48,653 nt of DNA, taken from NCBI GenBank assembly GCA_022842285.1, contig JALHPV010000015.1, positions 1-48,653 on the forward strand, given 5' to 3'. The translations under genes and the position numbers were made by a program. Shown here piece by piece: positions 1-24,366 of this stretch. Position 1 is the stretch's first letter. Each line of letters opens with the position of its first letter. The notes under the pieces are model-generated. The model was not told where the DNA came from and did no database searches. It worked only from the letters and a program-made list of their open reading frames with translations. The DNA is from Kofleriaceae bacterium (GTDB lineage Bacteria; Myxococcota_A; Polyangia; Haliangiales; Haliangiaceae).

Positions 1-78
1 TCAGAGGAGAGATTGTTCGCGCTTCGCGCGGACCGGACTCATGCCCTGACGCAGGCGGCGTTCGATGTCCGGGTGCCG

Positions 79-131
79 GACATCATTCCTCGGCGTCCTC
101 TGCGCCCTTGGCGGTCAGATCTCTGGAGCAC
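79..131. repeat. Dispersed repeat, copy 1 (CTTGGCGG type)
   Basis: This ~53-bp stretch matches 860-913 with only a few mismatches. The shared core runs from GACATC through a CCTTGGCGGT tract to ATCTCTGGAGCAC. On the minus strand it contains the last codons and TGA stop of the 115-205 gene fragment, followed by CGCC-rich sequence. Just upstream, near 17-33, is a short GC hairpin of the CGCGCTTCGCGCG type that recurs near 22271 and 23281. I infer a member of a local dispersed repeat family. Confidence 0.6.
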
Positions 132-728: not shown

Positions 729-859
729 CGGGGACTGTCGCCACTGTTGTACGCGTAGCGGACATGCGCAAGGGAGCAGTCCACGGCATGCACCGGGCCA
801 CCGTTGAGCTACGCGCGCGTGCCCGCTTGGAGGTCCGCGTTCCTAACGGCCGGCTGCAC

Positions 860-913
860 GGACATCGATCCTTGGCGTCCCCCGCGACCTTGGCGGTTAC
901 ATCTCTGGAGCAC
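860..913. repeat. Dispersed repeat, copy 2 (CTTGGCGG type)
   Basis: Second copy of the 79-131 repeat. It shares GACATC, the CCTTGGCGGT tract and ATCTCTGGAGCAC. On the minus strand the copy can be read as APEM followed by TAA, parallel to APEI and TGA in copy 1. Both copies may therefore preserve the very end of a gene plus its downstream CGCC-rich flank. It is followed by a GGTCGGCCCC-ATTGATG element also found at 267-287. Confidence 0.55.
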
Positions 914-1105: not shown

Positions 1106-1175
1106 GCACGCGATTCATGCGCACGCGATTCGTGCCCCGGAGTTCCAACGCCAAGACGCCATCGACGCCGAGAGG
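1106..1175 (+). repeat. Composite repeat module, locus 1
   Basis: Two adjacent 15-bp units (1106-1120 and 1121-1135) differ at one base, GCACGCGATTC(A/G)TGC. They run into TCGTGCCCC and then ACGCCAAGACGCC followed by a degenerate CGCCGAGAGG. The same order (15-bp doublet, TCGTGCCCC, ACGCCAAGACGCC, CGCCAAGG) occurs at 23193-23265. Both modules lie on the plus strand a short way 3' of a minus-strand gene end. Confidence 0.55.
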
Positions 1176-1303
1176 AAGGTTTCGGAGGACGAGCTACCCA
1201 TGTTCCCGGTTGCACAGCCCCACCCCACAAGAGAGCTCCGGCGCGAAGCGCCCTGAAAGTTCCGGCCCTGGCGTCTATGGCGTCTTTGGCGTCTTGGCGT
1301 TGA

Positions 1304-1999
1304 TCATTCTTCGAGCGGGCATCTCCTGAGGCGTGCAAGTGCCGCGTCGACGGGCGCGGCATCGCCACCCGCGAGCCACGCGAGGGCTGCCGCGTCGAGC
1401 TCGCGAACGGCGTCGGGGTCGGCGCCCATCGCGAGCGCATCGGCGAAGGGCGCGGCGATCGGTTCGCGGGCGCGGCGGAGTACGGCCAGGCGGCCGTAGC
1501 TACCGCGGACGATGACCTGGCGGCCGTGCCAGTACGCGACGAGCAACGCGGGCAGCGCGATGAGGTCGGTGGGATCGGGGACGATCGTCGAGCCGCCGGT
1601 GACGACCGAGAGGGTCGCGGCGACGACAGCGGCCGCCGCGGGCGAGAGCTTGACGGCGGTGAAGCCGAGGAATGCGATCACGAGGGCGGCGTGCAGCTTC
1701 CAGGGACGGAGCGAGAAGTCGAGGCGCAGGCCGAGGCGTGCGAGCGCCATGAACGCCACGTCGAGCGCGGCCGTCGCGACGAGCGGGACCACCGCGAGGC
1801 CGGCGACATCGGAGAGCTTGCCGGTGATGGTGCCACCGACGGCGGGCTTGAGGAGCCAGTCGTTGACGACGAGGAGCGCGATGCATGCGAGAGGCAGCGG
1901 CGCGAGGAGCTCGGCCGCGGGGAAGCCCGGGCGTGCTGTCGAGTCGGGCCCGGCCAGGAAGCGCCAGGCGCGGCGGTAGGCGCTTACGTGCGATTCCAC
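1304..1999 (-). CDS. predicted multi-pass membrane protein, 231 aa
   Basis: I cannot assign a function. Hydrophobic segments that could span the membrane lie at about residues 28-50, 64-90, 102-135 and 145-165, so three or four helices. The soluble C-terminal tail (about 180-231) is Ala/Asp-rich and contains LAWLAGGDAA, the part that is duplicated as a fragment at 115-205. The ATG at 1999 lies inside the end of the BoxC-like gene, giving a 16-nt overlap. The stop is followed directly by CGCCAAGACGCC-type repeat sequence. The overlap suggests co-translation with the upstream boxC-like and kinase genes. Confidence 0.7.
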   Translation of the reverse strand: MESHVSAYRRAWRFLAGPDSTARPGFPAAELLAPLPLACIALLVVNDWLLKPAVGGTITGKLSDVAGLAVVPLVATAALDVAFMALARLGLRLDFSLRPWKLHAALVIAFLGFTAVKLSPAAAAVVAATLSVVTGGSTIVPDPTDLIALPALLVAYWHGRQVIVRGSYGRLAVLRRAREPIAAPFADALAMGADPDAVRELDAAALAWLAGGDAAPVDAALARLRRCPLEE

Positions 2000-14229: not shown

Positions 14230-15903
14230 TTGGGCAGCGATCTTCCGTACGAGCTGGACGACGACACCGGGCCACCAAGCGTCAGCTACGGGCGCGACAT
14301 CCTGGTAGTCGACGACAACCAGTCGAACCTCGTCGCGATCGAGGCGGCGCTGCAATCCCTGGGGCGCAAGCTCGTGCTCGCGAGCTCGGGGGTCGAGGCC
14401 CTCGGCTGTCTCCTCGAGCAAGACTTCGCGCTGATCATCCTCGACGTCGCGATGCCGGGGATGGATGGCTTCGAGACGGCGAAGCTCGTGCGCTCGCGCG
14501 ACAAGAATCGCTCGACGCCGATCATCTTCGTGACCGGCCTGTCGTGGCAGGACGACGCGGTGATCCGTGGTTACGAGCTCGGCGCGTTCGACTTCCTCAT
14601 GAAGCCGATCCGCCCCGAGGTGCTGCGCGCCAAGGCGAGCGTGTTCGTGCAGCTGCAAGAGCGCACCATCGAGCTGCAGGAGAAGGCCGACGAGCTTCGC
14701 CGCGCGCAGGCGCGCAATCACGAGCGCGAGCTCCAGGCTCTCAGCAAGCGGTTCGAGAACGATTCGCTCGAGTACCAGATGAAGCAGCTCGCGGAGATCG
14801 ATCGCCGCAAGGACGAGTTCCTCGCGATCCTCTCGCACGAGCTGCGTAATCCCTTGCAGCCGCTCCAGACGGCCGTCGAGGTGCTCGATCACGACCCCGA
14901 TGCGCCCGTGCCTCCACGCATCCGCGGCATCATTCACCGCCAGGTCCATCACATCACGCGCCTCGTCGACGACTTGCTCGACATCGCGCGCCTGAACGCC
15001 GGCAAGCTCGAGCTGCGCCGCGAGGTGGTGCGGCTGTGCGCAGTGGTCGACGAAGCCGTCGAGTCGACACGCAAGCTGGCCGAGGCGCGGACCCACAATG
15101 TCGTCGTGGTCGGCGCCGACGCGCCCGCAGCCGTCCATGGCGACTCGACGCGCCTCGTCCAGGTGGTGTCGAACCTCCTCTCGAACGCGATCAAGTACAC
15201 GCCGCCGAACGGCAAGATCACCGTCGAGTGCGGCATGCGCGACGGGTATGGCTTCATCCGCGTCACCGACAACGGCAAGGGCATCACCGCGAAGCTCTTG
15301 CCCCGCGTGTTCGACATGTTCGTCGACGAGCGCACCGAGCCCTCCGGGGCAGGTGGGCTCGGCCTCGGGCTCGGCCTCGTGAAGCGGCTCGTCGAGATGC
15401 ATGGTGGCTCGGTCCACGCGTTCTCCGAAGGGACGGGCAAGGGCGCGAGCTTCGAGATCCGCCTCGCCCTCGTCGACGCGCCCGCGGTGGCACGCACCCG
15501 GAACCAGACGAAGCTGCCGCCGAAAGGCCCGCTGCGCGCCGTCGTGTGTGACGACGCCCCGGACCTGCGCGAGCTGATCGCGGACCTGTTGCGCCTCCAC
15601 GGACACGTGGTGACGGAGGTCTCGGACGGTCCCGCCGCCATCGAGGCGGTGCTGCGCGAGAAGCCTGACGTGGCGCTGATCGATATCGGCCTTCCGGAGA
15701 TGGATGGTTACACGGTGTCGCGGGAGATTCGTTCGCGACTCGCCGGCGCCGGGGTTCGTCCGCGCTTGATCGCGATGACCGGCTACGGCCAGGCCTCCGA
15801 TCGAGCCGCCGCCTTCGAAGCGGGCTTCGACGAGCACATCACGAAGCCGGCGACCGCCGACACGATTCTTCGAGCGCTCCACGGCACCGATCCAGAAGGG
15901 TGA
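14230..15903 (+). CDS. hybrid histidine kinase, REC-HisKA-HATPase-REC
   Basis: A 557-aa cytoplasmic signalling protein with no membrane span. An N-terminal receiver carries DD and phospho-acceptor Asp72 ([11 protein letters not shown]). A coiled coil at about 135-190 leads to HisKA with SHELRNPL, His203. HATPase boxes are [15 protein letters not shown] and [11 protein letters not shown]-terminal receiver carries Asp485 ([11 protein letters not shown]). There is no DNA-binding output, so it probably works in a phosphorelay. TTG at 14230 has GAGGGA just upstream and a possible -10 before it. GTG at 14122 is the only other workable start and would add 36 residues. The stop is 8 nt before the ATG of the giant kinase gene, so the two are very likely cotranscribed. 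Confidence 0.85.
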
Positions 15904-15911
15904 AACGACCT

Positions 15912-22262
<6,351 letters not shown>

Positions 22263-22532
22263 CAGGTCGTTCGCGCTTCGCGCGAGGGCATGACGAGGCG
22301 GCCGCAGCTCCGCGCCACGGGGGCTGGGTCCGCTCGCCCCGTCGCATGAGACGGAGTGCTCGCACCACCGGCGTGCCATGCGCACCAACTCACGCCGGCG
22401 CCCGACTGAGCCGCCTCCCCGCTACGGTGCTCGAGACCCACCCCCGATGTCGCTCCGCAGGCGGCCTGCCTCGTTCATGCCCCAACCGCGCGCTCCCCGC
22501 CCCCCGCTTCGTCCTCCACGTAGCATGCAGGC
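22263..22532. other. Intergenic strip with hairpin and 50-bp repeat
   Basis: No gene is visible. At 22271-22285 TCGCGC-TTC-GCGCGA forms a 6-bp hairpin 10 nt after the kinase stop. Its motif also occurs near 17-33 and 23281, so it is a repeat as much as a terminator. At 22434-22483 lies the first copy of the 50-bp direct repeat described separately. The last 20 bases carry GCAGG before the DMP19-like ATG. Confidence 0.5.
22434..22483 (+). repeat. 50-bp direct repeat, copy 1
   Basis: This 50-bp block is identical to 23145-23194 and in the same orientation. It includes GCAGGC-G-GCCTGC, a small palindrome, and starts AGACCCACCCCCGATG. The two copies bracket the DMP19-like gene (22533-22970) and the 3'-end gene fragment at 23053-23142. 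Read on the minus strand it could encode MNEAGRLRSDIGGGS, probably without meaning. Confidence 0.85.
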
Positions 22533-22970
22533 ATGAGCATCGAGGCGAAGGAGACGGCGCTGTTCGCCGCCTACGAGCGAATCGTGGCGAGTCAGCAGAC
22601 AGTTGGATTCGCCAAGCTCGACCGGGCGGATCAGCTGTTCATCGTGATCTGGGAGCTCGAAGCCGAGGTGAACAACGGCGGGTTTTCGCAATGGATGTTC
22701 AACAGCTTCGGTGGGCAGCCGGAGCTTGCTGTCGTCGCGCTTCGTGAGCTCGGTGCGAGCGCAGTGGCAGATGTCTGCGAGCGTTTCTTTGCGTTGTTGC
22801 CGGGCGGTCGCCCCGAATCCGATCGAGATGCTCGTCAATCGCAGCTCGAAGCCGCGGAAGCGCAGCACGGCGAGAAAGCGTTCGAGGATGCGTGCTCGGC
22901 GCTAGAGGAGGAGTTTTATTCGCTCGAGGACGACCTCCGCGACCGCCTGTGGAGTCTCGTGCGTAGCTGA
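22533..22970 (+). CDS. DMP19 family (DUF4375-like) protein
   Basis: A 145-aa soluble protein. The stretch IWELEAEVNNGGFSQWMFNS followed by a Gly-containing turn and a helix (LAVVALRELGAS) matches my knowledge of the DMP19/DUF4375 family, which keeps an NGGF-type motif. DMP19 proteins are acidic DNA mimics in Neisseria, but most relatives have no known role; I do not claim that activity here. The codon use is visibly less GC-biased than in neighbouring genes (for example TTTTATTCG, TTTGCGTTGTTG). It is flanked by 50-bp direct repeats, which suggests acquisition or mobility. Confidence 0.7.
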   Translation: MSIEAKETALFAAYERIVASQQTVGFAKLDRADQLFIVIWELEAEVNNGGFSQWMFNSFGGQPELAVVALRELGASAVADVCERFFALLPGGRPESDRDARQSQLEAAEAQHGEKAFEDACSALEEEFYSLEDDLRDRLWSLVRS

Positions 22971-23052: not shown

Positions 23053-23142
23053 TCAGGGCCAGCTGACGATTGCGAGGCCTGCCCGGCCGGCCGCGCCGCC
23101 GGTGCCACCGAGGCCGGCGGTCTCGCGGTCCGGGTCGCTGGC
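23053..23142 (-). pseudogene. 3'-end fragment of a Gly-rich lipoprotein gene
   Basis: Read on the minus strand this encodes the last ~29 codons and a TGA stop of a close relative of the 23353-24366 lipoprotein: GLGGTGGAAGRAGLAIVSWP here versus GLGGTGGAAGRAGLVIVSWP there. About 87 bp align (23056-23142 with 23355-23442) with only a handful of differences. Upstream of the match the sequence turns directly into the 50-bp repeat, so only the 3' end exists. It parallels the fragment at 115-205. Confidence 0.75.
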
Positions 23143-23144
23143 GT

Positions 23145-23194
23145 AGACCCACCCCCGATGTCGCTCCGCAGGCGGCCTGCCTCGTTCATGCCCC
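23145..23194 (+). repeat. 50-bp direct repeat, copy 2
   Basis: Identical to 22434-22483 and in the same orientation. It begins two bases after the end of the Gly-rich gene fragment and runs directly into the 15-bp doublet at 23193. Confidence 0.85.
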
Positions 23195-23265
23195 GCGCGC
23201 TCGTGCTCCGCGCGCTCGTGCCCCAGAATCGTTTGACGCCAAGACGCCGAGGAACGCCAAGGTCA
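23193..23265 (+). repeat. Composite repeat module, locus 2
   Basis: Two adjacent 15-bp units (23193-23207 and 23208-23222, CCGCGCGCTCGTGCT with one mismatch) run into TCGTGCCCC, then GACGCCAAGACGCC and AACGCCAAGG. The order of elements matches 1106-1175. A GCGCTTCGCGC element follows at 23281, comparable with GGCGCGAAGCGCC in locus 1. Confidence 0.6.
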
Positions 23266-23305
23266 GAAGAGATGTGATCGGCGCTTCGCGCACGACGCGT
23301 GTGCG

Positions 23306-23344
23306 GGAGGGTGTCGCAGGGGTCGGCCCCCTGCGACACCCTCC
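23306..23344. terminator. Long perfect hairpin 3' of the Gly-rich lipoprotein gene
   Basis: A 17-bp perfect inverted repeat (23306-23322 with 23328-23344) encloses a 5-nt loop TCGGC. It lies 8 bp beyond the stop of the minus-strand lipoprotein gene. No T tract follows on either strand, so it may act as a terminator or mRNA-stabilising structure rather than a classical intrinsic terminator. The loop region (AGGGGTCGGCCCCCT) belongs to the GGGGTC/CCCC family seen in the first kilobase, so it may also be a REP-type element. Confidence 0.55.
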
Positions 23345-23352
23345 GATGTGTT

Positions 23353-24366
23353 CTAGGGCCAGCTGACGATGACGAGGCCTGCCCGGCCGGCCGCGCCGCC
23401 GGTGCCACCGAGGCCGGCGGTCTTGCGGTCCGGGTCGCTGGCGTTGCCGGGCGTGGCACCCTCGCCGGCGTCGGTGTCCTGTTGCGAGAGGCCGGGTTCG
23501 ATGTGGCTGCTACCGCCGCCGCCCGCGGAGGTGCTGGAGGAGCCGCCGTTGAAGCCAGCGCCGCCGCCGAAGTAGCCGCCACCGCCGCCGCCCGAGCCGT
23601 TGGTCATGGAGTTCGACCGGGCCGAGCCGCCTTGGGTGGAGGTGCCCGCGCAGTCCGGGATCACGTTGCAGGTGCCGGGGGCGGATTGCGTGCCGCCGCT
23701 GCCGGGGTTGTTGCCGTTCAGGCCGGGGAGGCCTTCGAGTCCGCCGCCGGCGCCGCCGGATTCGGCCGCGCCGTCGCCACCGCCTCCGCCTCCGGCGGCG
23801 GTGATGAGCTCGATACCGGCGGAGATGACGGCGGAGCGTCCGCCGCCGCCGCCGCCGAAGCCGGTCTGCGGCGTGCCACCGCCGGACCCGCCGCCATTGA
23901 CGCCGCCTGCGCCCGACGACGACCCCCCACCGCCGCCACCGACGAGGATCATCAAGGGACCGTCGAGGTCGGTGGCAAAGCCGGTCGCGAATCCGCCGCC
24001 GCCGCCGGGGCCGCCATCGCTGCCACCGCCGGCGCCCCAGAGCTTGAAGGTCGCGGATGAACAGCCAACGGGCAGCGAGACGGTGAACGTGCCGACTTCG
24101 TCGAAGCGCTCGGTGCCGGGTACGCAGATGGCGGCGTCGATGGACGCGTCGGGCTCGGCGTCGATGGGCGCGTCGGGCTCGGCGTCGAGAGGCGCGTCGG
24201 GCTCGCTCGCGTCGGCGAAGGGGTTAACGGTGATGCAGGTGGCGCTGGGGCCGCAGATCTGATCGCCGGGGCACCGCGAGCTGTCGCTGCACGGAACGCC
24301 CTCGGGCACCGTGGGCGCGTAGCAGGCCGCAAGCAGGACCAGTACGGTGAGGCGCGGAGCAGGCAA
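23353..24366 (-). CDS. Gly-rich lipoprotein, 337 aa
   Basis: The signal peptide ends in the lipobox LAAC. It is followed by a small Cys module (CSDSSRCPGDQICGPSATC) and a spacer of EPDAPLDA-like repeats (about 53-80). A beta-rich region begins at FTVSLPVGCSSATFKLWGAG, and the rest is a Gly-rich C-terminal half with long GGGGGG tracts ending in LVIVSWP. The plan matches the 466-aa lipoprotein at 12656-14056. The last ~29 codons are repeated as a fragment at 23053-23142. The function is unknown; a surface location is inferred from the lipobox. Confidence 0.72.
   Translation of the reverse strand: MPAPRLTVLVLLAACYAPTVPEGVPCSDSSRCPGDQICGPSATCITVNPFADASEPDAPLDAEPDAPIDAEPDASIDAAICVPGTERFDEVGTFTVSLPVGCSSATFKLWGAGGGSDGGPGGGGGFATGFATDLDGPLMILVGGGGGGSSSGAGGVNGGGSGGGTPQTGFGGGGGGRSAVISAGIELITAAGGGGGGDGAAESGGAGGGLEGLPGLNGNNPGSGGTQSAPGTCNVIPDCAGTSTQGGSARSNSMTNGSGGGGGGYFGGGAGFNGGSSSTSAGGGGSSHIEPGLSQQDTDAGEGATPGNASDPDRKTAGLGGTGGAAGRAGLVIVSWP

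Follow-up and report, generated by a model that had tools for sequence, protein, structure and literature searches.

A probable REPIN-like palindromic mini-element with three-heptad arms in a Kofleriaceae genome, and similar arm architecture in other bacterial phyla

The repeated module at two gene ends of the window (the whole stretch of DNA that was analysed, 48,653 nt from a Kofleriaceae bacterium) most likely belongs to a palindromic element of REPIN-like kind that is non-autonomous and would be moved by a putative enzyme. We give a probability of about 0.6 to this reading, in which the module is a single arm and the mini-element, palindromic and non-autonomous, works in the manner of a REPIN or a REP dimer. 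An arm consists of the tag GTGCCCCGGA, a T-rich spacer, and three CGCC-heptads in the order CGCCAAGA, CGCCnnnGA, and CGCCAAGG at spacings of 8 and 9; alignment of 46 copies gave the consensus GnGCCCnGGAnTTTCAACGCCAAGACGCCnnAGACGCCAAGG. In the window, the 12-mer CGCCAAGACGCC has three occurrences (1149 on the plus strand, 1288 on the minus strand, and 23237 on the plus strand), where dinucleotide shuffles predict 0.05. The features of the window are as follows.

77-131, minus strand: degenerate arm GTGCTCCAGAGATCTGACCGCCAAGGGCGCAGAGGACGCCGAGG; direct repeat, 85% identical with 859-913; layout assigned by eye, below the profile threshold
859-913, minus strand: degenerate arm GTGCTCCAGAGATGTAACCGCCAAGGTCGCGGGGGACGCCAAGG; direct repeat of 77-131; layout assigned by eye, below the profile threshold
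1106-1135: 15-bp tandem doublet outside the plus arm; a variable feature, with different arrays in copies elsewhere
1130-1177, plus strand: arm (tag GTGCCCCGGA, spacer, three CGCC heptads); profile R1, 44.8 bits, E 6.5e-11
1241-1251: hairpin GCGCGAAGCGC, the inner hairpin of the minus arm 1278-1309; also follows the arm in other copies
1278-1309, minus strand: inverted arm, complementary to 1146-1169; profile R1, 30.4 bits
1304-1999, minus strand: gene with its stop at 1304, preceding the inverted arm when read in its own direction; without a Pfam match
22271-22285: hairpin TCGCGCTTCGCGCGA, without heptads, following the stop of the hybrid kinase gene
23055-23143, minus strand: second copy (89 bp) of the 3' end of gene 23353-24366, separated from it by the arm-bearing insert
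23189-23224: 15-bp tandem array of 2.4 copies outside the locus-2 arm
23217-23267, plus strand: arm with GAGGAACGCC in the middle, of a longer subfamily in this genome; profile R1, 36.5 bits
23281-23291: inner hairpin GCGCTTCGCGC of locus 2
23306-23344: perfect 17-bp hairpin GGAGGGTGTCGCAGGGG/CCCCTGCGACACCCTCC, adjoining the gene stop
23353-24366, minus strand: gene ending at locus 2, with a glycine-rich domain

The first-pass annotation had described one series of parts at both loci, alike in order and orientation and followed by the stop of a minus-strand gene. The parts are indeed common to both: the 15-bp tandem doublet (1106-1135 and, in 2.4 copies, 23189-23224), TCGTGCCCC (at 1130 and 23216), ACGCCAAGACGCC (1148-1160 and 23236-23248), and the GCGC-GAA/TTC-GCGC hairpin (1241-1251 and 23281-23291). 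Locus 1, however, is a pair of opposed arms, a plus arm (1130-1177) facing a minus arm (1278-1309) to which the GCGC hairpin belongs, and the orientations differ: the locus-1 minus arm is sense to its minus-strand gene and adjoins the stop; the arm at locus 2 runs antisense to its minus-strand gene and sense to the plus-strand gene 22533-22970. Among the stretches previously taken for loose parts, those at 17-131 and 860-913 correspond to the degenerate minus arms at 77-131 and 859-913, and the one at 22271-22285 is a hairpin only. The locus-2 arm belongs to a subfamily with matches of 79-89% identity at C69, C9, C125, C228, and C172 in the same genome. In Rfam 15, the window had no match at the gathering threshold, and 1000-1320 had none up to E 5.

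Several other repeats lie nearby. A direct duplication of 89 bp (23055-23143 and 23355-23443), with the stop codon at the same place in both copies, flanks an arm-bearing insert of ~211 bp and resembles either an insertion that made a very long duplication or a tandem duplication combined with an insertion; it is unlike the usual target duplication. A 67-bp repeat (ACCCACCCCCGATGTCGCTCCGCAGGCGGCCTGCCTCGTTCATGCCCC...), 90% identical between 22434-22500 and 23145-23211, adjoins the locus-2 arm. A separate palindromic repeat with the core GGGGTCSGMCCCC is present at 206-220, 998-1012, and 23306-23344, and is also found near arms elsewhere in the genome (L006). The window further encodes, at 15900-22262, a hybrid histidine kinase of 2120 aa with 11 HAMP matches, which about ten tandem repeats of 276 bp encode.

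In the whole genome (7.9 Mb, 550 contigs), CGCCAAGACGCC was found 73 times and its reversed control twice. The profile scan of the genome, set beforehand as the test of the module, returned about 150 matches and not two weak ones: at E<1, the sequence-only profile recovered 150 arms, which fall into 68 clusters, and since the profile was built from 46 of the found copies and matches those by construction, the 12-mer count (73 versus 2) is the independent figure. The arm count is probably an underestimate because 22 of the 57 arm-bearing contigs have an arm within 400 nt of a contig end. Arms occur singly, in tandem, or as inverted pairs, and many in this genome are unpaired; other copies include tandem arrays with units of 66-129 bp. 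The inner GCGC hairpin shortly past the core recurs in other copies, as do short tandem arrays just outside the tag, but these arrays differ from copy to copy, so the 15-bp doublet is not the fixed part of the module that it was first thought to be.

All 20 mixed clusters of this genome run from plus to minus with the heptad 3' ends inward, an order also seen in the listed mixed clusters of two same-genus genomes (G004 and G007). A pair arranged in this way would form a long stem. At locus 1, 1146-1169 and 1279-1302 are 92% complementary over 24 nt, and folding of whole units gave z -9.7 and -8.7. A single arm behaves differently: the consensus arm of this genome is without a fold (-0.4 kcal/mol, z +1.8), and z was -1.8 for a G007 arm and -0.4 for a AACCGCAAAG-type arm. 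The two arms of one unit agree at variable positions more than when arms are randomly reassigned within a genome (76 versus 64.8, p 0.0034, 19 units from G007 and G004), with weaker agreement in the Kofleriaceae genome (p 0.036 in one of five measures). The loops mostly have at most short stretches in common (in one pair, 41 nt recur in inverted orientation); as they are mostly unrelated, the whole unit is not faithfully copied. That the arms keep one spelling per genome while the loops diverge suggests that the arms are the recognised part.

Placement was determined with a purpose-written gene caller, counting only fully bounded clusters in this genome: 21 lay in convergent, 18 in co-directional, and 1 in a divergent region. 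When this genome, G004, and G007 were pooled and compared with intergenic length, convergent regions were enriched (p 6.5e-7) and divergent regions depleted (p 2.6e-6), the baseline being the intergenic length within 309 kb of the Kofleriaceae genome, borrowed for the G004 and G007 part. Random placement relative to genes, which would have counted against the module, was not what was seen: arms lay mostly 5-60 nt past stop codons. Outer arms faced a stop in 47 cases, at a median of 34 nt, and a start in 11, at a median of 158 nt; seven clusters were inside predicted genes. Sense orientation holds by definition in convergent regions, and a test of it comes only from co-directional regions whose arms have a single orientation; these gave 12 sense and 4 antisense (p 0.038). 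In the cross-phylum set, placed with a crude caller, 19 co-directional regions were sense and 18 antisense, with 14 convergent and 12 divergent. The genome G043 served as a negative control: CGCCAAGRCGCC was found there 62 times versus 7 for its control pattern, but of 42 sites that were read, 40 lay inside predicted genes, so that codon usage and not the element accounts for them. Simple pattern counts need a check for gene overlap.

Comparison within the genus supports the view that this lineage has gained arms where there were none before, at any rate between skp and fabZ (one site, 71-85% identity). About 400 nt separate two conserved blocks there in the Kofleriaceae genome and hold two arms and further arm-like sequence, whereas in those genus relatives whose junction could be read through, the interval measures 21-145 nt and lacks an arm. 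At this identity, neither exact ends nor a target duplication could be discerned at the gain site. For locus 2, no arm-free counterpart was found in the relatives, in which the neighbourhood is not conserved. The genomes of the genus have from 0 to 24 profile matches, which indicates a lineage-specific expansion.

The same architecture was recognised in at least 15 phyla, each genome having its own spelling. The pan-bacterial pattern ACCRCNAAGRCRCNAAGRACRCNAAG matched at least 120 stretches of species genomes, where ~0.2 matches are expected in the whole collection by our own estimate under uniform base composition. According to the record titles, the taxa among the matches listed include Cyanobacteria, several proteobacterial classes, Bacteroidota, Planctomycetota, Chloroflexi, Acidobacteria, Verrucomicrobia, Lentisphaerae, Spirochaetia, Gemmatimonadales, Nitrospirae, Nitrospinota, Latescibacterota, Hydrogenedentota, KSB3, WOR-3, and Sorangium. 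Sixteen such genomes had 1-178 exact copies each and no control match in any (132 in Sorangium cellulosum So ce26, 178 in Calothrix NIES-4105, and 11 in Methylosinus). Heptads are genome-specific, for instance mostly CACTAAG in Pinibacter (G421) and CGCGAAG in Tychonema (G426), and the three heptads of an arm agree in their variable letters in 180 of 240 comparisons versus 78 expected from column shuffles (80 loci), a figure raised by the base composition common to a genome. An inverted partner within 300 nt was downstream at 31 of 97 cross-phylum loci and upstream at 2 of 97. The pattern has no exact match in the Kofleriaceae genome because the middle heptad has diverged in the dialect of the window; common ancestry of the distant arms and those of the window would rest on architecture (8/9 spacing, AAC(C) start, and polarity) and not on a tree. 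Among IMG/VR contigs, 58 stretches (L403-L460) carry the exact pan-bacterial arm pattern, in phage DNA or host flanks.

REPs tagged with GTAG or CGTC, and their dimers, are intergenic, lie near stop codons, and occur in many phyla (Di Nocera et al. 2013, PMC3733652); REPINs were described by Bertels and Rainey (2011, PMC3116915). The arms resemble both in being short, high-copy, and present in several phyla, and, in this genus, in being intergenic, close to stops in convergent or co-directional regions, and scarce in divergent ones. Like REP dimers, inverted arms with variable spacers pair as one stem, but with a single polarity, whereas REP dimers are both head-to-head and tail-to-tail. Unlike REPs, which are self-palindromic units of 20-40 bp with an unpaired tag and an associated RAYT gene, the arm of this genome forms no hairpin, consists of three direct heptads, and does not track RAYT. 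GTAG was found in 0 of 95 5' flanks and 1 of 95 3' flanks and CGTC in one of each, both below the shuffled means. The arms therefore work like a REPIN but are not a member of that family as defined, failing on the self-palindrome, the tag, and the RAYT.

Membership of the REP/REPIN family proper, with movement by a RAYT (Y1 transposase), is accordingly hardly probable, even though placement and dimers are REP-like, this genome has 2 PF01797 matches above the cut-off, and such matches occur in 13 of 15 arm-bearing genomes elsewhere. The two matches are on contigs without profile matches; G004, with 12 profile matches for the arm, has only one PF01797 match, below the cut-off; and no PF01797 match was found in Sorangium So ce26 or Methylosinus, for all their exact copies. 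RAYT was rejected as the mobiliser on this lack of tracking in the genus and its absence from Sorangium and Methylosinus, contrary to the proposal of a REP-associated transposase. G011 and G012, of the same genus, show a marked expansion of Y1 transposase-like genes (34 and 20 PF01797 matches) and have no profile match for the arm. If the arms were instead the terminal inverted repeats of an ordinary transposon, with its full-length copy overlooked, they would form a MITE, as the short non-coding loop between inverted repeats and the lineage-specific bursts recall, and long copies may be unassembled where contigs break at arms. This, too, is improbable: unlike the MITEs of IS elements, the arms have variable ends, no target duplication was seen, and the ends of one transposon would be unusual in so many phyla. 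The open reading frames between widely spaced inverted arms, in the sequence pieces fetched, encode ordinary genes or matchless products, with no transposase, no full-length parent element, and no other candidate mobiliser.

A selected 3' UTR element, in which an arm with its hairpin, or else the paired stem, would terminate the transcript or shield it from 3' exonucleases and be kept for that function, is unlikely but deserves more weight. It would account for the arms facing stops, the convergent enrichment, and the sense bias of the co-directional regions; yet REPs are placed likewise (PMC3733652), the hairpin lacks a U-run, the bias is missing from the cross-phylum set (crude caller), and most genus relatives have near-background arm counts. 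Very improbable is a binding array, in which a DNA- or RNA-binding protein that reads repeats would bind the three heptads of an arm and the repeats would serve that protein. The agreement of heptads at variable letters and the tandem arrays would suit it, but that agreement is raised by base composition, spacings of 8 and 9 bp are off the DNA helical repeat, and the dispersed gain would still require a means of movement. From general knowledge, Rho utilisation sites were set aside, their spaced CC dimers suiting the CGCC spelling and not the CAC spellings elsewhere, as were integron attC sites, since core-site sequences were not seen and the arms adjoin isolated host genes. Elhai and colleagues reportedly described, in 2008, small dispersed repeats of Nostoc that are short and intergenic; these differ in sequence and occur in few lineages. 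The intergenic TAACTGA repeats of Beggiatoaceae (PMC4679880), likewise short heptamer direct repeats, are also set apart by their sequence and by the few lineages that carry them.

In the REPIN-like reading, then, an arm would comprise a 5' tag (~CCGGA), a short T-rich spacer, and three CRCNAAG heptads at spacings of 8 and 9, and inverted arms with heptad 3' ends inward would have a variable loop of some 50-200 nt between them. By sequence and folding, the pair could form a long stem in single-stranded DNA or RNA, and a putative copying enzyme, probably acting in trans, would recognise the arms. Arms also multiply locally into tandem arrays, single arms may be half or decayed units, and copies persist mostly past stop codons, where promoters and frames would presumably be least disturbed. 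The initial suggestion of a non-autonomous element or a structured 3' region was broadly right, except that the unit is the arm, often with an inverted partner, and that the triple-heptad pattern extends across phyla. More tentatively, and at somewhat less than even odds, these arms may define an unnamed superfamily of palindromic mini-elements in many phyla, with three CRCNAAG heptads per arm, 8/9 spacing, genome-specific spelling, and a mobiliser other than RAYT. Keyword searches of the literature returned REP papers and other repeats only, with no description of the module, and the arm sequence strings appeared in no open-access paper text, although papers frequently give such sequences in figures or supplements alone.

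If this reading is true, the arms would represent a widespread class of bacterial repeats that fails the REP definition yet has REP habits. Genome-specific spellings on a constant scaffold would suggest that a recognition factor evolves along with its target. Sorangium, which has 132 exact copies but lacks a RAYT, would be a clean place to seek that factor.
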